Part shown: positions 17,602 to 53,244 of the stretch, one piece after another
Layout: each line of letters begins with the position of its first letter
Position numbering within the stretch: the first letter of the stretch is position 1
Origin: Mytilinidion resinicola
Taxonomy: Eukaryota; Ascomycota; Dothideomycetes; Mytilinidiales; Mytilinidiaceae
Assembly (NCBI RefSeq): GCF_010093595.1
Contig: NW_022985452.1
Coordinates: forward strand, 124,001 to 188,000
Length of the DNA stretch: 64,000 bases
Direction of reading: 5' to 3'
Translations under genes and position numbers: made by a program
Notes under the pieces: model-generated
Database searches by the model: none
What the model saw: the letters and a program-made list of their open reading frames with translations, nothing else
Told to the model about the DNA's origin: nothing

Positions 17602-20600
17602 ATGGGCAAGATTAAGAAGACGGCTAATGCGAGGCACAACGTGACTGTAGTATGTATCTTCATGTCTTGATTCCTATCACTGCTCGCTGACATTGTCAAC
17701 TACTAGTCTCCTATGATCACAGAGTTTGTCAAAGCCACTTCTTCCATTCCACTTTTTCAGTTACCCGCACACCTTGCTTCATTTCCTCGACTATGGCCCT
17801 TTCCTAGAGGTGACCTGTTCCACTGGATACTCGCGCTGAACCGCTTCGACCGCATACTGGACCTCTTCAACCAGGAATATGAGCTAGCGAGCGGGCCACA
17901 GACGCAGCCTTTCCAGCGGCGGCTACTGCTGAAGGGCGATACTGACGAGGAGGGCAAGCTGATATCGGAACAGACGCCGACGGGTGCCATTCTTGACGAG
18001 CTCCGCTTCTCTGAGGAAGGTGACCGCGAGTTGGTTGAACAGATTCTCTCTTTCACTAGGCTGCTTGTGGAGCAATGTGGGAATCGGAGTTTGTACGCGA
18101 GCAGCAGCCATCTGAACAACCTCCTCAACACGACGTCTATCTCCCTCCTCAAGACTACACTTCGCTTGAGCCATCGCCTTGCTCAGCGATACCATGCTTC
18201 TCGCTCACGGATGCCTCCGGCCTCCATGCACAACAATCTCCTCACAGGCCACTACAATATCAATCTAGAGAAGGTTAATAAGCTGGCGGCACCACTCCCG
18301 AAGTCCCCTTCAACTGCTCTAGCTCTCAACACACCGTCGGTAAAGGGAAAGGAGAAGGTGGCCGTGGATCGTAAGGGCAAGAGCGAGAAGATTAACCCGG
18401 CTGATCTGGTGTCGCTGGTCAAGGACGACATATCAGAATCCGTTCTCAGTGATGAATGGGGCGGGGTGGTTCTGTCTTACTACGAGCCTTCTCCAGTCGC
18501 TGTTGATGGTGCCAGCAAGTCCGCCGTTCCAGAGACGCCCGCGTCACCTACGATGCCCAAGACTCCTACTCCTGCCCGCCGGACATCAAATCTGGGTCCC
18601 AATCAAACTCCTCGACCGCATCGCACATTGTCTTCCGATGAATCTCCAACGACGGCGACGCTAGCTGGCAATCGGGACCACGAGTACGCACGGCACTCTG
18701 GGCCAAAATTGTTCGAGCTTTCCCCCTCCAAAGTTGCTTCTACCCCTGCGCATGAGCTGGTAAGCGCTGGCTTGAAAGAGGTGCCCGAGAGCTCTCAGTA
18801 TGAGCTTTTGCATCGGATTCGGGTTGCCAAGGCCATGACATCGGAAAAGTCCAGTCGAGCAGATCTGGTGGCAATTCGCTTGCTTGCTGTTGCAAATGTC
18901 GCCTACGTATATTCGGAACCCAACTTTCAACAGAAAATTGGCCAGCAAGATTCTGATGAACCCCGTCGTCTCCAGCTCGCCTATCAACTGTCCGAACTTG
19001 TCCATCCCCCGGGAAATGGTGAATCTGGTGTCTCAAGAGAGCTCCAGACACATGCATTGAACGCTCTCGAGGCGTTGACAAAGCACAAGATCAAATCAGG
19101 GGACGTTTGCTCTGCACTCAGTGTTAATGTGAATCATGGAGTCCTATTCTACGTGGTACGAAAGGCTGTCGCAGAACTGGCAGTGGAGGAGACCCCCGGC
19201 GAACCCTCCGATGAAGATGACTGGCGGGAGGCACTCTTCGGATTGCTCAATAGCCTTCCAAACTCTCAGCTGCGAACAGGTGAAGCCATGGTGTCCGCAG
19301 GCCTGCTCGAGATTCTAGTCGAAGTACTCACACTCCGAACCAACAAGGCAGAGCGGAATCATCCGAAAGTCCTGGGTTTTTTGGACACCTTTGTATACAA
19401 TCTTCGCGATGCTTTCCAAGCAATGGTCAACGCCAAAGGGCTGGAGATTATTGCTGATCTAGCTTCTTACGAGGTTGAATCGTCGAAGGCACGCGCAGAG
19501 CAAGGCGATGGGATGCCAAGCAACTTCAAGACTCAGTTGACCGATTACCAAATCCCTTATCATCAACAGCAAACACTTCGCTGGCTGTTCAAATTTATGA
19601 ATCACATGATGGGTCACACTGGAGGTAACTTCGATCGACTGTTGCGGAACCTGATTGATTCTCCGCAACTGCTGCGGGCTTTGCGCACAGTGATATCGAA
19701 CGCTTCGACCTACGGATCCACAGTATGGAGTATGGCGGTCTCAATCTTGACAAGCTTCATTCACAACGAGCCTACGAGCTACCAAGTAATCGCCGAGGCG
19801 GGGTTGAGCAAGGCTTTCCTGGAATCCGTGACCAACAAGACGATAGTGGAGAAGGAGGAGCAGGTCTCAGCCGACGAGGATCGCGCAGGATCTGACGAGA
19901 CTACCCCACTTCCTGAATCCCTACGATCATCAACGAATCCCGCATTTATTCCGAAGCCAGCCCTGGTGTTCTTTCCTCCGCGAGATGGACCCTTGGCGCA
20001 AGGGATTTTGCCAGTCGCGGAAGCCATCTCGAACATTCCATCGGCGTTTGGAGCGATTTGCTTGGCAGAGGCCGGCATGAAGCTTTTCAAATCATCCGAC
20101 GCCTTGGCGAGCTACTTTGAGGTTTTCGAAAGCCCAGCACATGTCAAGGCTCTGGACGGCGACCCGGATGTGTCCACCATAATCGGTAATGCTTTTGACG
20201 AGCTCGTTCGCCACCATCCTGCACTCAAGAACGATGTCCTCGATTCCGTCTACCAAATGGTCATTCGCGTGACGACCTTGTGCTATAACAAGGCAGCCGA
20301 AGAGGGTGCAGGAGCGAAGCTCTGGATCAATGATAAAGACGGTCGGATTGTTGTCTCAGGCGGTCGCCGAGCGCTCAAAGGCCAACAAGGACCCCTACAT
20401 TCAGCCCTTCACGGCGACGATGTCAACATGACTGATGCGGATGAAGCGGACGCCGGCGATTCTTCCTTGGACAAGGATGCCACGTTCGATCAGGTTTCTG
20501 ACGCTGAAGACGCGAAAGACAATCCTAGTGCTTCTAAATACATCGCCGTCGTGTGCAAATTCCTTGGGGGGTTCTTCTCTAATATCAGTCTCTGTCAATC

Positions 20601-23600
20601 TTTCATCGAGAAGGGTGGACTTGAATTCGCTCTAGATTTCGCAACACTACCTTGCTTGCCGTACAAGTTCAATGATCCTACAGGTTCTAGCGAGGAGGTG
20701 AGCCGAGTAATTCAGCTACTTGTCGAGCAGAAACCGCATTTAGCACTTCCGTCGCTTCTTCAGCGGGCACAGAAAGCTGTAGATCAGCTGGAGCCTCTGA
20801 TGAAGCATAGCTCTGAAGAGGCCTTCTTTGCCCCGTTCACGAAATCGCCTCTGACGTCGGAATTTGCATCTTCTGCAACACGGCAAGATGTCTTAGACCA
20901 TGGCACCGGATATGCGAAAGCCCTTGTTACAGTCCAAACACTCTGCAACGCGCTCTCCTTGACGTTCCAGTCCCAAATCTACAATCATCGCTCTACGAAC
21001 AATATCTTCTCCCAGGTCAACCTTGCTGATATGTATGCGCGCCTAATAGAAAGCCTCGGCCGGCTTCATAGGAGTTGTGTTTGGGAAGAGATCCTGCTTC
21101 AGAACCAAATGCCATCAGATTGGGAGAAAGCTACGCGAATCAAGAGCTCTGGGTTTGGAACAGACGAGGCCGATGATGTCTTGCGAATATCGCATGATCG
21201 TACACCGTCTTTCTCAACCGAGACTACGACTGGTTTTGCGGATGGCCAGATCGCATCGACCAACGACAGCAACCACTCCGAAGGAACGGCAGACTCGGCG
21301 GCTCCCCGTAGAGATCGAGACAGTGCACAGTTCAAGAACACTCAAATCCTACGCTATCTTTTGAGCAGTGTGCCGACAGCAATCACGCCTTTCTTCTCCT
21401 CCCTCGGCAAGTTGCTCCTGTTCCGTCGAGGCATTGAACCATATCCGAAACAAGGTCATGTCATTGTAGCAGACCAACTTGCGAAAGCAGGCATGGATCA
21501 GTTGCTTTTCGACGTCCCAACCAATGCCGAATCAGCTAGGGATCGCTATGCCTATTGGATAGTCATCTTGACGGATGTCTCTCAACTCTTTATCGACACC
21601 GGCATGGAACGTGGCTATCCCCAGGCTTTGACACTTGTCTTGCAGTGCTTCAAGAACCAGGGGGGGTTTGCTGTTCTAGGCGACATTCTTGAGTCGTTTT
21701 ACGATGAGGCTACGTCTATCATCGCAACACAAGGTGATGACAAGCCCAAGGATGATGTGCAAGGAGCGCTTAATCTATCCCTTGGAGGGGTCAAGATCAT
21801 TCTCGCATTCTACCATCAGATCATCAACTCAAAGTTGATCAATGAGGCTTCACAGACTGCGGCGATGCAATCACGGCCAGACAAGGACCGAGATAAGCCT
21901 GACTACTTCTTTCCTAACCAGTTCGTGGTTGAACTTCGTGCGGCTGTCATCAAGCCAGTGCAGAAGATCTGGAACTCCGATCTCATGGACAAGGCTACGA
22001 CTTCCATTGTGAAAACTCTAGTCGCAATCTTGAAGACTGTGTTAGACGGTGACACCGAAAATGGAGCTTATAAGCGCTCTGACAAACTTCCGACGCGTAG
22101 TAAAATTCCTCTGAGGGTATACAAAGTGCGTCCCGAGAGTGTACAACGGTTGAAAGATTCAGGCTTCACTGAGGAGCTTGCTATAGAAGCTCTATATCGC
22201 TGTTTCGACGAAGCTACAAAGGCTCGCGAATACTGCGCTGCCCATGCAACTGATCTCAGGGCTTCCCGGAACCCATTGCCCTATTATGAGGTCAAGAAGG
22301 AATCTTCCTCTTCGCCTGTGAGGGCCGCTGTCGTTGTACCCGAGCCAATGGATGACTCTAGTACATCTGTCGATTCGGAGGCCCCAGATACCAATTCTGT
22401 GACCATGGAAGATGTAGCGGACTACTCCAAGCAAACACCATCGGCAGCTGGAGCAACCTCGACAATAGAGCCAGCCGGATCGCACCCAGTAACTGGATCA
22501 GAATGGGATGGGCCCTATCTCGTCCTAAAACTCAGCGACCGAGAGGATACAAAGCCGGTCCCAGTCGTCACGGTGGATGACCTGGATAGTGAACGCGCTA
22601 CGCTAAGGAAAAACCTGATCGACCGGTCGCTAGATGTACTCAACGTCCACGATAACGTTACTTTCGAGCTCTCTGACTTGATTTCAGCCGCTGTTTCCAA
22701 GGCAACGGAACCAACGGCATTGCGTGGTGAGATTGGATCTACACTGGTGCAATCTCTTATCTCGATGCAGACCGGCGATGACTTCCGTGACAACAGCAAG
22801 AAGATTGCTGCTTCCGCCCATCTGCTCGCGCTTGTTCTTCAAGAGAAGGACTTCTATGACGCGACTGTTGAGGAGTTGAAGGATAGCTTCTCGATACTGC
22901 TTGAGTTCATCAAGATCCCGCCCTCCCAGTCCACCGAAGAATCTGCGCCCTGGATAGGCCAAGTACTTCTCATTATAGAGCGCCTTTTGGCCGAAGACGC
23001 GCAGCCGCATCAAATACAGTGGACGCCTCCCAGCAGCGACAATCCGTCGGAAGACACGTCGATCGTGAAACTTCCCGAGCCAGTTGTGACTCTTGACGAA
23101 AAGAACCAGATGTTCGATGCCATCATGCAGGTATTGCCACAGATAGGCAAAGACGAATCTTTGGCGCTGTCTGTTTCTCGCGTTCTGGTAATGCTTACGC
23201 GGACTCGTAAAATTGCAGTTCGTCTTGGTGAAAAGCGAAATATCCAGAGACTCTTCCTCATGGTCAGACAACTCGCCGGAATCACAAATGACGGTCTTCG
23301 GAGCGCTTTCATGTTGATCCTCCGACACATCATTGAGGATGAAGCAATCATTCGCCAAGTCATGCGTAGCGAGATTCAGTCAGCTTTCGAGTCACGGGAC
23401 AGGAGGGCGACAGACACGACAGCCTACGTGAGGTCGATGTACCAACTGATCCTTCGCGATCCCGAAACCTTCGTGGAGGTGACGAATGAGAAACTTACGA
23501 TTCCGCGATACGAACCGAACCAGACACCACAGACTTTGGCGTTGAAAAAGGAGGCGACCGCTCTTCCGACCGCAGACAACGCTGGACCTGCCTCTGCCGA

Positions 23601-26600
23601 GATTAATGAGAACTCTGCGAGTTCCGACGCTGAAAAGATCAAGCCCTCAACTGAGGTGAAGTCAGGCGAAGGATTAGAGAGGACGAGAACTCAGGATCTT
23701 AAACCTCCTATTGTCGAGAATCCGGACGGCGTAATCCATTATATGCTGTGCGAGTTGCTGACTTACAAAGATGTGGATGACAAAGAGCCACCTGTCCAAT
23801 TCTCTGACGACAAAGCAAAGAAGTCGACAACCACAGATGTGGCGATGGCAAATGGGGAATCGAGCTCGTCTGCACCAGCAGCTTCGACCCCTGTAACTGA
23901 ATCAAAGAAGGCAGACAAAACGGAGTTCAAGGCTGAAGCGCACCCCATCTACATTTACCGATGCTTCATTCTTCAGTGCCTGACAGAGCTTCTTGCCAGC
24001 TACAACCGTACGAAAATTGAGTTTATCAATTTCTCACGCAAGGCCGATCCTCACGCCATGACGCCATCCAAACCTCGCTCCGGTGTCCTGAACTACTTGC
24101 TCAATGCATTGGTCCCAGTGGGAACCTTAAGTCACGGAGAAGATTTGGCGTTCAAGAAGCGGTCCGCAACCTCGTCCTGCGCCATCAATGTTGTCGTAGC
24201 TCTTTGTGTCAAAACCGGAGAGAATGGCATTGCAAAGGCTCTCCAGCCCTCGCCTTACGTCGAGGACGAGACCGATCTTCTTTTTGTCCGGAAGTTCGTG
24301 CTTGAGCACGCTATCAAAGCATTCAAAGACGCTTGCACATCGGAAGAACCACTGGATATGAAATACTCTCGCTTGCTTGCGATCTCTGACATCTTCTCTA
24401 AGATGATTCTTTCGAGACTCGATAATGGTGGCAGCACTAATGCACTCTCACCCACTCAGAAGCAACTAGCCAAGATCATGTATGAGAAGAACTTCATCTC
24501 GACGCTTACGACTTCTATTGCGGACATCGATCTCAACTTTCCCAATGCCAAGAGAGTAGTGAAGTACATACTACGGCCTCTCAAATTCCTAACCGAGATC
24601 GCCGTTGACCTCAGCACTCTTTACGAGGACTCGTCAACGCCAGGGAACACGGAAGAGGATGAGATATCAACTGCATCGGACGTCAGCGACATCGAGACAG
24701 ATCGAGAAGAGACCCCGGACCTCTTCCGCAACTCTACTCTCGGCATGTTTGAGCCTGGACAGAACATGGAGTCCGAATCTGATACCTCCGATGATGAGGA
24801 CGACGATGAGATCTACGATGACCAGTACGCCGACGACATGGAGTATGATGAAGAAATGGGCCAAGATGACGAAGATGTCATTAGCGAAGAAGACGAAGAA
24901 ATGGATGGCATGGGCCCCCTGGAAGGTCTTTCTGGCGAAATGCCCATGGACGTCGAGGTCGTCATAGGTGAAGAGGGCGACGACGATCTCTCCGAGGACG
25001 AAGACGGCTCAGAAGACGACGAGGACGATGACCCTGACGACAATGATATCGAGGATATGGAAGAAGTCACTGGAGATGACGAGAACGCTAGCCTTGGCGG
25101 AGGGGAAGAAGACGACTGGGCAAGCGAGGACGAGGATCACGATCACGACGGCTTCCTTGGGCCAGACGACGACGCCGACCACGATCACCAGTCCTCTATT
25201 AACCAGATCATTCAGGTCATCGGAGAGCGTGGTGGCCCTGACCTCATAGACCAACTTCAGGGCGACATGGCAATGGAGATGGCCGCAGAAGAGTTCATGG
25301 AGGAGGACATGCCGGATGAAGATGATGAAGATGACGAGGAGGAAGAGTATGATGAAGAAGACATCATCTACAACCCGGAAGGTGAAGATGATGAAGACAA
25401 CGGCGTACCCGACTTGGGCTGGGGCTTTGAGCCTACTCCGCATCCCCCCCGCGGCCATGCTCATCGCCTGAACCCATGGATGTTTGGAGGTGGTGACCGG
25501 ATCATGGTACCCACATATCGATCTCATAGGCCTGGAACTGCTCCGCGCGGCAATGATGATGGGGTCAACCCTCTCCTTTCACGTGCAGGTCGGTCCGGGC
25601 CAGGTGGTCATTTTGGTGGGCCTCGCCCCGAGAGCATGAGTGATTGGGTTCACGCTATCGATCCCATCCGTCCTGGTAGGATATTCGGCGGCGACAGCCC
25701 AGTGTCTTTTATCAGCAACCTCCTCAACGCCATGAATCAAGGCACCGTTCATCATCACAACGGCGCGTTCCACCTCTCAATCGGAAACTTACCCATGGGG
25801 CTACCACCGCCTATTGATCCCGGGTTTTCGCGGAACATGCGTCGTCCACAAGAGCAACACACTCGAGCTTCGCGGGAAGATCCTTCCCTTGCAATTTCTT
25901 TCATCCGCGCCGGTACTATGACGCGCTGGCAAGAAGAGGCTCGGATGATATTCGGCAACAATGTTACAGATAAGAGCCAGCGAGTAGTCAAATCGATACT
26001 GCGACTGTTAGTTCCACCTGCACTCGAAGCTGCGAAGCGATCGAAGGAAGAGCTCGCCGCGAAACAGAAGAAAGAAAAGGAAGAAAAGGAGGCTAGAGAG
26101 AAGAAGGAGCGTGAAGAGCGTGAAGCTGCTGAGGCCGAAGCAAAAGCTGCTGCCGATGCCGAAGAGGCGGCGGCTGCTGCTGCTGCGGCTGCTGCCGAGA
26201 CTACCGAACAACCTGCCGACGAGAGCGGCGAAGTGGAGCAAGCGTCTGCTACTGCAGTAGAGGGTCAAGCTATGGAGGGCGTTGAGGCAACTCAGCCAGG
26301 CCCTGCGGCCGAGGCGACTGAAGCAGGCCCAGCAGAACCAACGCCACGAATCACGACAACGATCCGTGGCCGAGAGCTTGACATAACTGGCATGGGTATC
26401 GACATGGAGTATCTGGACGCTTTGCCCGAAGACATTCGAGAGGAAGTCCTGATGCAACAAGTCCAGGAGCAGCGTTCACAGGCCGCAGCCGCAGGCGAAG
26501 AACCTACTGACATTAGCCGAGAATTCCTGGAAGCATTGCCGCCCGACATTCGAGAGGAGCTTCTCCAGCAGGAAGCTGCGGAGCGTCGTCGGAGAGAACG

Positions 26601-29600
26601 CGAAGAGCAGCGCCGCCGGGCACCCGCCGGTGCGGCTGCAGCTCGCGGAGAAGATATGGACACTGCTAGCTTCCTTGCTTCTCTGGAACCCGGCCTACGA
26701 CATGCCGTCCTCATGGACCAAGATGAGGATATGCTGGCCCAGCTACCAGCGGAATTTGCAATTGAAGCTAGAGCCTTGGGGGGTGATCGACGGCTCAATC
26801 AGCTTGATGCCTACAATACTCAAATGCGGCGCGCACGTGGTCTTGGTCTTGACCGAGGACACGTCGACGAACAAGGTCAGAAGAGAAAGGCGCGGCCCTG
26901 TGTACAAATGTTGGACAAAGCTGGAGTTGCCACCCTTCTACGACTGATGTTCATTCCCCAGACTGGCAGCTCAAAACAGAGCCTCAACTCTGTGCTCAAG
27001 AGTGTTTGCGAAAACCGACAGAACCGCGCAGAAGTCATCAGCATTCTCCTCTCGATCCTGCAAGATGGCAGCGCAGACATCAACGCAGTGGAGCGGAGTT
27101 TCACCCAACTATCCCTTCGTGCTAAGCAGCCCGCCTCGCAAAAGACCCCACAGCCGCTCAAGAGATCCTTGACGGGTCAGTTTCCAACCGGCACCGAGGT
27201 GTCCCCTCTTATGGTTGTTCAACAATGCCTCAATACTCTGGTCTATCTGACCGGCACCAATCCACATATTTCGAACTTCTTCCTGTCGGAGCACGAGACT
27301 GCTGTTGGGTTCAAGAGTCGGGCAAACCGCAAAGGCAAGGCGAAAGAGACCAAAGCCACGAAATATCCTCTGAATGCTTTGCTCAGTCTGCTGGACCGGA
27401 AACTTATCATCGAGAGTTCAACTATAATGGAACAACTGGCCACTCTTCTGTGCAGCATCACTCAACCGCTGCAGGCCTTACTAAAGAAGGAAAAGGAGAA
27501 GCCAGCCGAGGAGAAGAAAGATGGCGACAATGAAGATGAAATTCAGGCGACACCAGACCAAGCCACCACTTCCGCTCAACCCGGAACTGGAACTTCTGGT
27601 GATACTGAGATGACTTCGGCGCCGAATGTTGTACAACCAATCCAGGCTACGGCTGAAGGAGAAACATCAACATCGGAACCTCAAGCACCAGCGGCCGAAG
27701 CAGCTGATGCAGAGGACAAAGCTAAGAAAGCTCGAGCTCTTGTGCCTCCAGACGTTCCGGATTACAACCTCCGACTAGTCGCTAAGATCTTGGCTGCCCG
27801 GGAGTGTAGCAGCAAAACATTCAAGGATACACTTTCCGTCATTAACAATCTGTCGCCTATTCCCGGGGCGAAGGAGGTATTTGGAAAGGAGTTGATTGAT
27901 ATTGCACAGAGCCTTGGCCAGTCAATCCTTAGGGATCTCGAGGATCTGACCGCTCAAATTTCCAAGGCAGAATCGCCCACCGATGTTCAAGGAATGGCGC
28001 TATCAAACTTCTCGCCTGCCAGCTCTGACCAGGCAAAGCTTCTCCGCGTTTTGACTGCTCTCGACTATCTCTTTGATCCCAAGCGGGCAGAGATCCAGGA
28101 TAAACCGTCCTCAAGCGGCGTGGAAGCATTGGAGTCATCTCAAAAGGATGATATCCTCACTACGCTCTATGAGAACTCAACCTTTGGCCCACTGTGGAAC
28201 AAGCTCAGCGAGTGTTTGGCGGCGATTCGCCGACGAGGAAACATGCTCAACATTGCTACAATCCTCTTGCCCTTGATAGAAGTACTGATGGTTGTGTGCA
28301 AGAACACGACGCTGAAAGATGCCCCTCTCGGAAAGATGCATGCGAAGGAGTTTGCGCTCTCCAGTCCGCCACCAGAGTCAAAGATGGAGACACTTTTCTT
28401 TACGTTTACAGAGGACCATCGGAAAATACTGAATGATCTTGTCCGCCAAAATCCCAAACTCATGAGCGGCTCCTTCTCGCTTCTAGTCAAGAATTCCAAG
28501 GTTCTCGAATTCGATAACAAGCGTAACTACTTCAATCGTCGGCTCCATTCGCGTGGCACAGAGGCTAGACATTCGCATTCAGCTCTCCAGCTTCAAGTTC
28601 GACGTGACCAAGTCTTCCTCGACTCATTCAAGTCTCTCTACTACAAGAGCGCCGACGAGATGAAGTACGGGAAGCTAAGCATTCGCTTTCATGGCGAAGA
28701 AGGAGTTGATGCGGGAGGAGTTACTCGAGAATGGTTCCAGGTGCTTTCGCGGCAGATGTTCAATCCTGACTACGCCTTGTTTGTTCCTGTGGCCTCGGAC
28801 CGCACTACGTTCCACCCGAATCGCCTCAGTGCGATCAACCCAGAGCATGCGTTGTTCTTCAAATTTATTGGCCGCATCATCGGAAAGGCCCTCTACGAAG
28901 GTCGCGTTCTTGACTGCCATTTCAGCAGGGCTGTGTACAAGAAAATCCTTGGCAAGTCCGTGAACCTGAAAGACATGGAGACTCTAGACCTTGAGTACTA
29001 CAAGTCGCTGCTCTGGATGCTGGAGAACGATATCACCGACATCATTACGGAGACTTTCTCCATTGATATCGACCAGTTCGGCGAAGTCCAAACTGTCGAC
29101 CTGATCGAGGATGGCCGCAATATCCCGGTTACAGAAGACAACAAGCATGAATATGTCCGTCTTGTCACCGAGCAACGCCTCACAGGTTCCGTACAGGAGC
29201 AGTTGGAGCATTTCTTGAAGGGTAAGTTGTCCGAAAATCAAAGGGTAGACGTTTGCTAACATGCACGATTAGGTTTCCATGACATAGTTCCGGCCGAACT
29301 CATCTCCATCTTCAGCGAACAAGAACTTGAACTGCTTATATCTGGTCTGCCTGACATCAATGTTGATGACTGGAAGAACAATACCGAGTACCATAACTAC
29401 ACTGCCGCATCCCCGCAGATCCAGTGGTTCTGGCGTGCAATGCGATCGTTTGACAAAGAAGAGCGTGCCAAGCTTCTTCAGTTCGTCACAGGAACCAGCA
29501 AGGTACCTCTCAACGGGTTCAAAGAGCTTGAAGGTATGAATGGCTTTAGTCGCTTTAACATTCACCGCGACTACGGCAGCAAGGACAGGTTGCCAAGCTC

Positions 29601-50219: not shown

Positions 50220-52651
50220 ATGAAGCTTTCCTTGATCCTCATCAGCGCAGTTGGCGTGCATGCTTCTCTACGAGAGCGTGATTTTGGGCAGGCTCACAAC
50301 CATAAGAAATACGTCAAACGTCAAGATGTAGTCCCGTTCCCTCCAGTCCTAGACACGAATGAGCAATTGCTTGTCAATTCCTTTGATAATGCTACAATTG
50401 CAACATGGGAATACTACTACTCTCATGGAGCGCATCTTGCTGGAACGAACAAGACTCAGGCTCAATGGACGGCTGACCGGTGGGCCGAGTTTGGATTCAC
50501 CTCTAGCCTAGCTGAGTACTGTAAGCATGATCGTGGTAATCAACTATGAGCATAACGGGGACTGAATTTGTCTCAGATGTCTTCCTTGACTACCCGATTG
50601 GACAATCTCTGCGGCTCGACTATAGCAATGGCACCTCACATGATGCGTCTCTAGAAGAAGAGGTTCTTGCGGTCGATGATACAACCAGGTGGGTCATGCC
50701 ATTATTCTATGTAAATCTTTACAAGCAGAGGTTGAAAAGAGAAAATTTGCGTGATCGTCGAGCCTTGTGAAGCAGTTTCGTGTTCAGCCAATCATGATAA
50801 GAAGCTAACTCTTTTGGCGCAGCTATCCGAACCGCATACCCGTGTTCAACGGGTACTCATTCTCAGGCAACGCAACCGCCGAATATGTCTACGTCGGTGT
50901 GTTAATGTTAAAGTTCTCTCTATCAAGTTTAGTCGTTACTAACTAGTGCGAAGGGAGAGGACAAGAGGTCGATTTTGTACGCCTGGAAGAACTCGGCGTT
51001 GAGCTGGAAGGCAAAATAGCACTCACGAAATACGGAGGGCCCTTCCGTGGACTAAAGGTCAAAAACGCCCAGAACCATGGCATGATCGGGGCTATCATCT
51101 TCACCGACCCCGACGGCGACGGCAACATCACCGAAGCAAACGGATACAAGGCGTATCCGGATGGGCCTGCTAGGAATCCTACCAGTGTACAGCGAGGTAC
51201 CGTCGAGTTTCTGAGTACCTATGCTGGTGACCCTACAACCCCTGGGTATCCGTCCAAGTTTGATTCTCCTCGTTCTGATAGATTTGTGGTAACGCCTCAT
51301 ATTCCGTCCATTCCAATTTCCTGGCTTGATGCACAGCCTATACTCCAAGCCTTGGACGGACATGGATTCACGGGTGAGGAGGTGAATCGTACTGGTTGGG
51401 TGGGAGCAATTGGTAATGTTACGTACAGTACCGGGCCTGCTCCTGGTACTACTCTTTTCTTAGAGAACGAGTTGGAAGAGAAGTACACTTACATCTGGAA
51501 TGCGATTGGTATTATCAATGGAACGAACGAAGATGAGGTTGTGATCGTCGGCAATCATCGTGATGCCTGGATTGTAGGGGGTGCCGGTCAGTCAATGTGC
51601 ATCAGCGAAGACGAGCAGACGCTTATGTGGCATAGGTGATCCCAATTCTGGCTCAGCCGTCATAGTCGAGCTATCCAAAGCCTTCGGTAAACTGCTAGCT
51701 ACCGGCTGGAAGCCTGCTCGCACCATCATCCTTGCAAGCTGGGATGGCGAAGAGTACGGCACAGTCGGGAGCACAGAATGGGTAGAAGAGTACGTACCCT
51801 GGCTCACCGAGGCTGCCGTAACGAACATCAACGTCGACATCGCTACCTCTGGCCCATACCCATACATAGACGCGACCCCCGACCTCCATGCGATTGCTAC
51901 CACCATCATGAAGAAGATCATCTACCCAGTCAAAGGGGTAACGAACCGAACTTTTTACGACGTCTGGTACGACTTCAATGACGGCGAGTTCGGCGTTCTA
52001 GGCAGCGGTAGTGATTTCGCCACCTTCCTCCACAAAGGCATCAGCGCGATTGACTTTGGCGCGGGTGGCGGTCCGGAGGATCCAATCTGGCACTATCACT
52101 CGAATTTCGACTCCTATCACTGGATGTCCACGTTGGGCGACCCTGGCTTCGTGACGCACAAGTCGATCGGCCAGTTCCTAGCCTTGCTGCTTTACCACCT
52201 AGTCAACGACGACGTCCTGCCCTTAAATCCAGCAGACTATACGCCAGCGCTAGAGGAATACTTCTCAGACCTGAACGATACAGTCATTTCCGCGAACAGC
52301 ACAGTAGACCTGACCGAGCTCAGCGACGCCATCGCTACTTTCAAGAACTACTCGTCTCAATTCGAGCAACTCCGTGCTTTCGCTATCTCTTCGAGTGACT
52401 CGGACTTGATCAAGGTCACGAATACTAAAGCGAAGGATTTCAGTAGGGGCTTTGTGAGCCAGGGTGGGCTGCCGGAGAGGGAGTTTTATCAGCATTTGAT
52501 CTTTGCGCCGGGCATTGATACGGGATATGCGCCTGTCACGTTTCCGGCGGTTACGGAGGCGGTGGAGGCGGGGGATTTAGAGTTGGCGCAGAAGTGGGTG
52601 GGAAAGACGGCTAAGGCGGTGCTGGTGGCGGCGGACATCTTGAAGACGTAG
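50220..52651 (+). CDS. Secreted zinc carboxypeptidase, glutamate carboxypeptidase II-like (M28)
   Basis: Five exons (50220-50520, 50577-50688, 50823-50896, 50954-51586, 51636-52651) give 711 residues, the usual size of this family. A signal peptide covers about residues 1-18, followed by a possible KR-type propeptide site (KKYVKRQ). A PA domain (about 120-270) contains ALTKYGGPFRGLKVKNAQNH. The M28 catalytic core has His364 in NHRDAW, Asp375 in GDPNSG, Glu412 and Glu413 in WDGEEYG, Asp441 in INVDIA and His528 in HYHSNFDSYHW, the complete two-zinc set. The C-terminal 150 residues are the transferrin-receptor-like dimerisation domain. It removes C-terminal residues, often Glu, from peptides outside the cell. 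The exon 3-4 junction uses the acceptor GCGAAG at 50953, giving YVGRGQEVDF. Many N-glycosylation sites support secretion. Confidence 0.93.
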
Positions 52652-53017: not shown

Positions 53018-53033
53018 AAAAAGAGCAAAAAAA
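53018..53033 (-). terminator. RNA polymerase III terminator of tRNA-Leu
   Basis: On the minus strand a T7 run (53033-53027) begins eight bases after the tRNA discriminator base, followed by a second T5 run (53022-53018). The first run is flanked by AAGAGC and GCTCTT, a small inverted repeat. Confidence 0.85.
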
Positions 53034-53085
53034 GAAGCTCTTGATCAGAGTGGGACTCGAACCCACGCCACTTACGTGACCAGGA

Positions 53086-53101
53086 TGTAATGTTAAGGTA
53101 A
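53086..53101 (-). other. Canonical 16-nt tRNA intron
   Basis: It lies after G37 of tRNA-Leu(AAG), the standard position for introns removed by the tRNA splicing endonuclease. Its ACCTTAAC segment is exactly complementary to GTTAAGGT around the anticodon, as eukaryotic tRNA introns often are. Confidence 0.8.
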
Positions 53102-53108
53102 CCTTAAC

Positions 53109-53161
53109 CTGGAAACACAGTTAGTAACTGAACGTAAGTACTTGGTGGGTCAAGAACTTGC
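53109..53161 (-). other. 53-nt GC-AG insertion with spliceosomal signals in tRNA-Leu
   Basis: Donor AG|GCAAGT, branch-like ACTAAC (53125-53120) in the context GTTACTAACT, and acceptor TTTCCAG. GCAAGT is the consensus for the minor GC class of U2 introns. The insertion is flanked by CCAGG on both sides, so the exact cut is ambiguous, but the product is the same and rebuilds the anticodon stem. Confidence 0.75.
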
Positions 53162-53176
53162 CTGGCGCCATAACCA

Positions 53177-53228
53177 CTGTCGAGGTAATTAGCATTGATG
53201 GTGATGAACGGGATGGAGGAATACTCAC
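53177..53228 (-). other. 52-nt GT-AG insertion with spliceosomal signals in the tRNA-Leu D-loop
   Basis: Donor GTGAGT (perfect consensus), branch-like GCTAAT (53193-53188) about 10 bases before the end, acceptor GACAG. Removal joins GAGT to TGGTTAT. It splits the internal A-box promoter. A 53-nt cut one step later would give GAGTGGTTAT, also acceptable in tRNA-Leu. Confidence 0.75.
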
Positions 53229-53244
53229 ACTCGGCCATCTGACC

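Follow-up and report, generated by a model that had tools for sequence, protein, structure and literature searches.

The minus strand of the window (the whole stretch of 64,000 nucleotides that was analysed, from the genome of the fungus Mytilinidion resinicola; Dothideomycetes, Mytilinidiales; 47.1 Mb in 44 contigs) carries a tRNA-Leu(AAG) gene that is split by two spliceosomal-type introns in addition to one canonical tRNA intron (Table 1). An earlier note on this DNA had described inserts of 52 nt in the D-loop and of 53 nt in the anticodon stem besides a 16-nt tRNA intron, and reading of the minus strand confirmed this arrangement. The second insert splits the 5' half of the anticodon stem at a CAG/G site, while the 5' boundary of the first carries a 2-nt ambiguity on structure alone, as a GT two bases upstream results in an equal ARAGORN score. 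Within the canonical intron, the sequence CCTTAA is complementary to UUAAGG around the anticodon.

Table 1. Parts of the tRNA-Leu(AAG) gene and flanking elements, in window positions
Feature	Position	Strand	Characteristics	Basis
tRNA-Leu(AAG) gene	53042..53244	-	two spliceosomal-type introns and one canonical tRNA intron	sequence reading, ARAGORN
Exon 1	53229..53244	-	5' acceptor strand, start of D arm (A-box region)	
Spliceosomal-type intron 1	53177..53228	-	D-loop; 52 nt; GTGAGT...GCTAAT...GACAG; branch A 12 nt from 3' end	
Exon 2	53162..53176	-	remainder of D arm and initial anticodon-stem bases (CCAG)	
Spliceosomal-type intron 2	53109..53161	-	53 nt; GCAAGT...TTACTAAC...TTCCAG; GC-AG; branch ACTAAC, branch A 12 nt from 3' end	
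Exon 3	53102..53108	-	end of 5' anticodon stem and anticodon AAG	
Canonical tRNA intron	53086..53101	-	37/38; 16 nt	ARAGORN fixed at 37/38: aag, i(39,16)
Exon 4	53042..53085	-	3' anticodon stem, variable arm, T arm, 3' acceptor strand, discriminator A	
B box	53053..53063	-	GGTTCGAGTCC, uninterrupted	
Pol III-type terminator	53027..53033	-	TTTTTTT, 8 nt past gene	

In its unspliced form, the gene receives no ARAGORN call. Upon removal of both inserts it is recognised as a tRNA (score 112.5), the name depending on how the canonical intron is treated: fixing it at 37/38 yields Leu(aag) with a 16-nt intron, whereas free placement yields Val(tac). Removal of all three introns results in a predicted mature form of 82 nt, which ARAGORN calls Leu(aag) with a score of 122.3, slightly above the range of 108.7–122.0 (median 112.6) of 39 intact tRNA calls in the same genome. 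By this call, the form has the cloverleaf, the class II variable arm, the anticodon AAG and the A73 that would be expected of a functional tRNA-Leu(AAG), and it folds better than 199 of 200 shuffled sequences (z -2.66). The earlier note had stated that 82 nt with all stems paired would be left. In the minimum-energy fold, the stems of the acceptor, anticodon and T arms are formed, while D and variable arms of the textbook shape are missing.

The match of the Rfam tRNA model (RF00005) to the window gene is split and, with 20.9 bits, stays below the cut-off of 29. Across the whole window, neither ARAGORN (bacterial settings, no introns) nor the Rfam gathering cut-off yielded anything, which is expected because the gene is interrupted. 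Intact tRNA-Leu(AAG) copies, brought up in the earlier note as a point that could speak against its reading, do occur in the form of the isoacceptor L006; its sequence, however, is rather different from that of the window gene (64 of 101 aligned columns).

Across the window as a whole, there is no enrichment of intron motifs, with the strict GT-AG motif occurring six times on both strands (0–6 in ten Markov resamples) and the loose motif 60 times (57–81 in ten resamples). What lies beyond chance is that, in this gene and in 19 others, such motifs coincide with the boundaries of tRNA segments. For mRNA introns, the comparison is confined to the two annotated introns of the aminotransferase gene, which at 74 and 66 nt are longer than the tRNA introns; the GAR gene was matched to residue 523 of 953. 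One protein read from the window shows 100% identity to a protein of M. resinicola over a best local alignment spanning 46% of the query. A second M. resinicola protein, P0121, could be read from the window through two introns in 490 of 490 residues, and the branch context TTACTAACT, which the earlier note had placed in the carboxypeptidase region, is present near position 50940. On the plus strand, positions 17707–29259 are taken up by an uninterrupted stop-to-stop frame of 3850 codons.

Interrupted tRNA genes across the genome

Altogether, 25 spliceosomal-type introns were found in 20 of 62 classified tRNA genes; hence, about a third of the classified genes are interrupted by short mRNA-type introns, a fraction that cannot be taken as unbiased, given that the census is incomplete and that some of the searches were aimed at interrupted genes. 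The classified set is composed of 37 RF00005 matches, 12 further intact genes and 13 further interrupted genes; with seven of the RF00005 matches being interrupted, it divides into 20 interrupted and 42 uninterrupted genes. When the genome was searched with RF00005 (E up to 10), 35 of the 37 matches exceeded the cut-off. Only 63 of 1387 first-look candidates received a score in this way, and ordinary genes such as that for Asp, L074, were missed as well, for which reason absence from the RF00005 list was dropped as a sign of interruption. Eleven of the 13 further interrupted genes were obtained with patterns combining a B box and a T-run, while L172 and L175 were reached only via related sequence, since their B boxes are cut or unusual. 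Isotypes of intact genes were assigned by eye or by ARAGORN, and no Met gene was identified in this incomplete census. The loci L080, L089, L102, L116 and L134 as well as the degenerate L176 and L177 were left out of the count; L034, which is among the RF00005 matches, is doubtful, and L095 was counted though weak.

The interrupted genes cover many isotypes. Besides the window gene, they include Leu(CAA) (two introns) and Leu(TAA) (the weak gene L095); Ser(AGA) and two genes for Ser(GCT), one of them with two introns; two genes for Arg(ACG), and one each for Arg(TCT) and Arg(CCG); Ala(TGC), Ala(CGC), Val(CAC) and Pro(AGG); Thr(TGT) (two introns), Gly(GCC) and two genes for Asp(GTC); and Ile(AAT) and Ile(TAT), the latter with two introns. 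Patterns made from the T arm and D-loop returned only chance or ordinary-tRNA matches in GTDB genomes and viral contigs.

The introns fall within a narrow length range (49–57 nt). At the 5' end, 22 start with GT, two with GA and one with GC, the GC belonging to a Leu intron and both GA to tRNA-Ser; at the 3' end, AG is present throughout (11 CAG, 10 TAG, 3 AAG, 1 GAG), and G is found at position +5 in 24 of the 25. CTAAY occurs within the last 20 nt of 21 introns, compared with 1.5% of random 20-mers from the window, and the best-matching branch A lies 9–14 nt from the intron end in 24 cases; only intron 2 of Thr(TGT), L083, deviates, as it lacks a good branch site. The hallmarks of the major spliceosome, i.e., a GTRAGY-type 5' end (22 GT and the single GC, with the two GA introns departing from it) and a CTRAY branch near the 3' AG, are, thus, recognisable. 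Canonical introns of intact genes contain CTAAY in 0 of 33 cases and combine a GT start with an AG end in two of 33, which is a weak control, as most of them are shorter than 30 nt. Avoidance of T-runs within the spliceosomal-type introns is not significant (two with TTTT versus 3.9 expected; P 0.22).

Regarding position, introns are found in the D arm, in the anticodon stem and loop, in the variable region, and in the T arm. According to a by-eye reading, the second intron of Leu(CAA), L072, is inserted between anticodon bases 34 and 35, beside the canonical intron. In Arg(ACG) L172, the intron lies inside the T-loop, while that of its paralog L027 occupies a different T-arm site. The two GA introns, from Ser(GCT) and Ser(AGA) (L040 and L041, respectively), reside at the same T-arm site and have GAAAGTG and AACTAAC in common with a differing middle portion; possibly, these are GA-AG introns that have been kept in two diverged genes.

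When 24 of the 25 introns were joined as a query, the 22 matches obtained comprised their own genes and two degenerate tRNA copies. The occurrence of the inserts as non-intron repeats elsewhere, which the earlier note had listed as a potential refutation, was not observed, and at the sensitivity of this query the tRNA introns appear as neither repeats nor introner-like copies. The degenerate copies are L176 (C4:521239-521289) and L177 (C18:447776-447829), in which relatives of the introns of Ala(CGC) L143 and Leu L095 are retained.

Several loci of other kinds were noted. Unusually long anticodon-loop inserts, which may be composite introns or simply long canonical ones, are present in L034 (70 nt by ARAGORN) and in L109, Thr(CGT) (by eye). 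L097, L099, L111, L113, L122, L125 and L127 constitute a Pol III-like, non-tRNA family with the common sequence CCAGCAGGAACCTTGCCC...GGCGTCGGCCCCGT or close variants (part of it is missing from L111), followed by a downstream B box and a T-run. A B box of the GTTCGA or GTTCAA type together with a T-run near the putative 3' end is also found in loci that do not resemble tRNA genes, namely L073, L076, L077, L079, L084, L086 and L090, and likewise L093, L101, L110, L118, L128 and L138; several resemble small-family members.

Splice boundaries

Upon in silico splicing, 19 of the 20 interrupted genes are recognised by ARAGORN (scores of 107.8–122.4). With the canonical intron fixed at 37/38, the isotype agrees with the by-eye assignment in all 19 cases, while four of the 19 are named otherwise under free placement. 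The remaining gene, Leu(TAA) L095, receives no call when spliced, has an acceptor mismatch and contains TTTTT in its intron. Left unspliced, ten of the first 18 genes go without a call; among the other eight, four are misnamed and seven need an intron of 43–93 nt.

In a decoy test on 144 stretches (84,364 bases, some genes being represented twice), with a motif that was written after the introns had been seen, excision created or raised a tRNA in 32 of 195 cases. When each of three decoy motifs was used instead, this happened in 3 of 191, 0 of 196 and 2 of 191 cases, respectively; the 32 cases correspond to 19 stretches and 14 distinct genes, some of them with several overlapping excisions. 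A second test, in which all excisions of 35–80 nt were submitted to ARAGORN, is decisive only where introns are far from the anticodon; of 23 predicted excisions, five scored higher than any competitor and two more shared the top score. In the other cases, alternatives located largely near the canonical intron scored higher, which is largely because ARAGORN also rewards removal of that intron. For L095, no GT-AG excision yielded a tRNA.

A further view of the junctions is offered by intron-less paralogs. Spliced Gly(GCC) L088 is identical to the intron-less L019 outside the canonical intron, and spliced Ile(AAT) L107 matches the intron-less L015 in 81 of 84 positions. For Asp, splicing of either interrupted gene reproduces the junction of the intron-less L074; L096 matches L074 in 79 of 95 columns, and the mismatches are located away from the junction. 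The introns of the two Asp genes, which are homologous, agree in 49 of 58 columns, with GTAAGC and ATGCTAACGGATGTTG being kept. Taken together, the ARAGORN calls on 19 of 20 genes and the paralogs L019, L015 and L074 indicate that the predicted excision would restore the host RNA exactly.

Removal of the introns and competing explanations

The reading of the inserts put forward in the earlier note, i.e., spliceosomal introns on top of an ordinary tRNA intron, is supported by introns of this type in a further 19 tRNA genes; junctions agreed by paralogs, chance-level bulge-helix-bulge pairing and a U6 intron of like design back it further. The interpretation appears to be right and, in extending from one locus to 20 genes, larger than stated.

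Very likely, the data are best explained by true spliceosomal introns in nuclear tRNA genes, which would be removed from a Pol III precursor by the spliceosome, followed by the tRNA splicing endonuclease. In this scheme, Pol III would synthesise the pre-tRNA, in line with a T-run after each of the 20 genes; the major spliceosome would remove the introns of the D arm, the anticodon arm, the variable region and the T arm in the nucleus, by which the cloverleaf would be restored; and only afterwards would the endonuclease cut the canonical intron at 37/38. The spliceosome is placed first because the tRNA body from which the endonuclease measures would be spoiled by an intron in the D arm or anticodon stem; Sen54, according to a section of a review, contacts the D arm (PMC4090602).

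Among the alternatives, the one to be considered foremost takes the interrupted copies for dead tRNA genes with chance introns, while mature tRNAs would derive from intact genes. It would accommodate the intact Leu(AAG) L006, the degenerate, intron-bearing L176 and L177, and the weak L095 with its acceptor mismatch and missing ARAGORN call, and a passage of the above review has it that odd introns of eukaryotic tRNA genes are mostly found in pseudogenes (PMC4090602). However, the 19 recognised genes reach scores of 107.8–122.4, compared with 108.7–122.0 for the 39 intact calls, the Asp paralogs have kept their splice signals although their introns have diverged, and both Ser(GCT) genes and both Arg(ACG) genes that were found are interrupted. 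Furthermore, a BLAST search with the spliced sequences of ten interrupted genes detected no contiguous uninterrupted copy in the genome; this query, which covered ten of the 20 genes and left the window gene among the other ten, matched only pieces of its own genes and the related, also interrupted Arg(ACG) gene L172. In view of these observations, we consider the dead-gene alternative very unlikely.

The decoding requirements of the cell bear on the same question. By ordinary decoding rules, Ser(GCT) reads AGY and Ile(TAT) reads AUA, codons that no other tRNA is known to read. In three stop-to-stop frames of the window, AGC and AGT together account for 129 of 5356 codons, i.e., they are common, and ATA accounts for 42 of 5356. 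As neither of the two Ser(GCT) genes that were found is uninterrupted, the cell very probably cannot do without splicing. Together with the missing contiguous copies of the ten genes searched, this need for AGY and AUA decoding is the strongest argument for splicing in the living cell, with the qualification that a diverged copy could have been missed. No uninterrupted gene was found for several tRNAs, which would make the spliceosome indispensable to tRNA processing in M. resinicola. The more far-reaching proposition is probable, albeit held with less confidence than the spliceosomal nature of the introns: the spliceosome would be essential for tRNA, with Ser AGY, Ile AUA, Arg CGU/CGC and AGA codons being read only after mRNA-type introns have left Pol III pre-tRNAs; spliceosome and endonuclease would act in order on one molecule; splicing capacity would gate translation; and introns would have spread to many tRNA positions, including the Pol III promoter boxes.

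A further alternative accepts the action of the spliceosome, but on Pol II transcripts, considering that the introns break the internal Pol III promoter. By eye, roughly one in two introns falls in or next to an A or B box, including the B box of L172, which is split inside the T-loop; introns cutting an internal box should weaken Pol III initiation. In the T-arm introns, however, the G of the terminal AG takes the place of the B-box G52 (by-eye reading), and T-runs start 2–20 nt downstream of all 20 interrupted genes (required by the search pattern for 11 of them, not for the other nine), which would favour a Pol III precursor. TATA-like sequence is present upstream of some interrupted and some intact genes. 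In addition, U6, a classical Pol III gene, has the same type of intron in this genome: one of 17 U6-like matches, L167 (G000:C1:2369760-2369910, minus strand), contains a 51-nt intron, GTACAC...AACTAACG...CTAG, between ACAGAGAAG and ATTAGC, while the other 16 are without it, as judged from their length of 99–103 nt. This U6 intron is of the known fungal kind; thus, as far as sequence can tell, the genome already provides a case of spliceosomal removal from a Pol III gene. A Pol II origin of the tRNA precursors is, hence, rated slightly lower still than the dead-gene alternative. Another U6-like copy, L164 (G000:C1:2920479-2920578), has CCTGAGA replacing ACAGAGA and a B box downstream; it may be a pseudogene or a variant.

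Least credible is the view that the tRNA splicing endonuclease removes the inserts, which would then be ectopic tRNA introns like those of Cyanidioschyzon merolae and cryptophyte nucleomorphs: while introns in the D, anticodon and T arms of one gene are known from such systems, as stated in part of one source (PMC9602550), the four-pair central helix of a bulge-helix-bulge was found in 1 of 25 introns versus 0.73 expected from shuffled exon-intron pairings (one register), and GT-AG ends, G at +5, CTAAY branch sites and the narrow length range are not predicted by it.

Relation to known systems

If spliceosomal removal is correct, tRNA genes that seem to need the spliceosome would join two RNA-processing systems which have been treated as separate, and splicing capacity would gate translation in M. 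resinicola. Several questions would become testable: whether the spliceosome needs coupling to Pol II or a cap, how initiation by Pol III proceeds where the A or B box is split, when and in which compartment each of the two systems acts relative to the other, and by what route introns reach genes whose products are neither mRNAs nor components of the spliceosome. Furthermore, standard tRNA finders can miss such genes, as exemplified by the sub-threshold Rfam match of the window gene. In the sections of two reviews that bear on the subject, nuclear tRNA introns are treated as the business of the tRNA endonuclease (PMC4090602, PMC3978253), and the word stem "spliceosom" does not appear in the main text of the 2014 review on tRNA introns (PMC4090602). 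No report of spliceosomal introns in tRNA genes was found among the papers listed from the open full-text literature, a scope that leaves aside subscription papers and preprints; the tRNA case is, by this measure, one for which no precedent was found, while spliceosomal introns in Pol III RNAs are already known from U6.

As portrayed in parts of two articles, the nearest tRNA case is that of the ectopic introns of C. merolae and of nucleomorphs (PMC9602550, PMC3978253). These likewise occur several per tRNA gene and in the D, anticodon and T arms; they are, however, ascribed to the tRNA endonuclease and the bulge-helix-bulge motif, whereas in M. resinicola that motif is at chance level and spliceosomal signals are present. 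The canonical 37/38 intron is also contained in many of the interrupted genes, the window gene included, but differs from the spliceosomal-type introns in position, length and ends. Introner-like elements of Dothideomycetes, described in a portion of one paper as a route of spliceosomal intron gain (PMC4457414), come from the same fungal class; unlike what would be expected of these, the 24 tRNA introns used as a query did not show many near-identical copies in the genome.

Introns of the mRNA type in fungal U6 snRNA genes were reportedly described by Tani and Ohshima in 1989 and 1991 and by Canzler et al. in 2016. Spliceosomal introns reportedly also occur in fungal nuclear rRNA genes. These rRNAs and the fungal U3 snoRNA (for the latter, PMC5832005) resemble the present case in being structured non-coding RNAs with mRNA introns, and differ from it in not being tRNAs; according to the 2017 paper on U3, frequent interruption is known, among small structured RNAs, for U3 and U6 only (PMC5832005). 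For fission yeast, the U6 intron has been ascribed, in an excerpt of one article, to reverse splicing near catalytic bases (PMC10484740), an account of intron gain that does not carry over simply to tRNA. What the tRNA introns of M. resinicola share with fungal U6 introns is a Pol III gene, a short GT-AG intron with a branch site, and removal by the spliceosome, which is predicted here; what sets them apart is that U6 is a component of the spliceosome, whereas tRNAs are not, and that here 20 genes of many isotypes are concerned.
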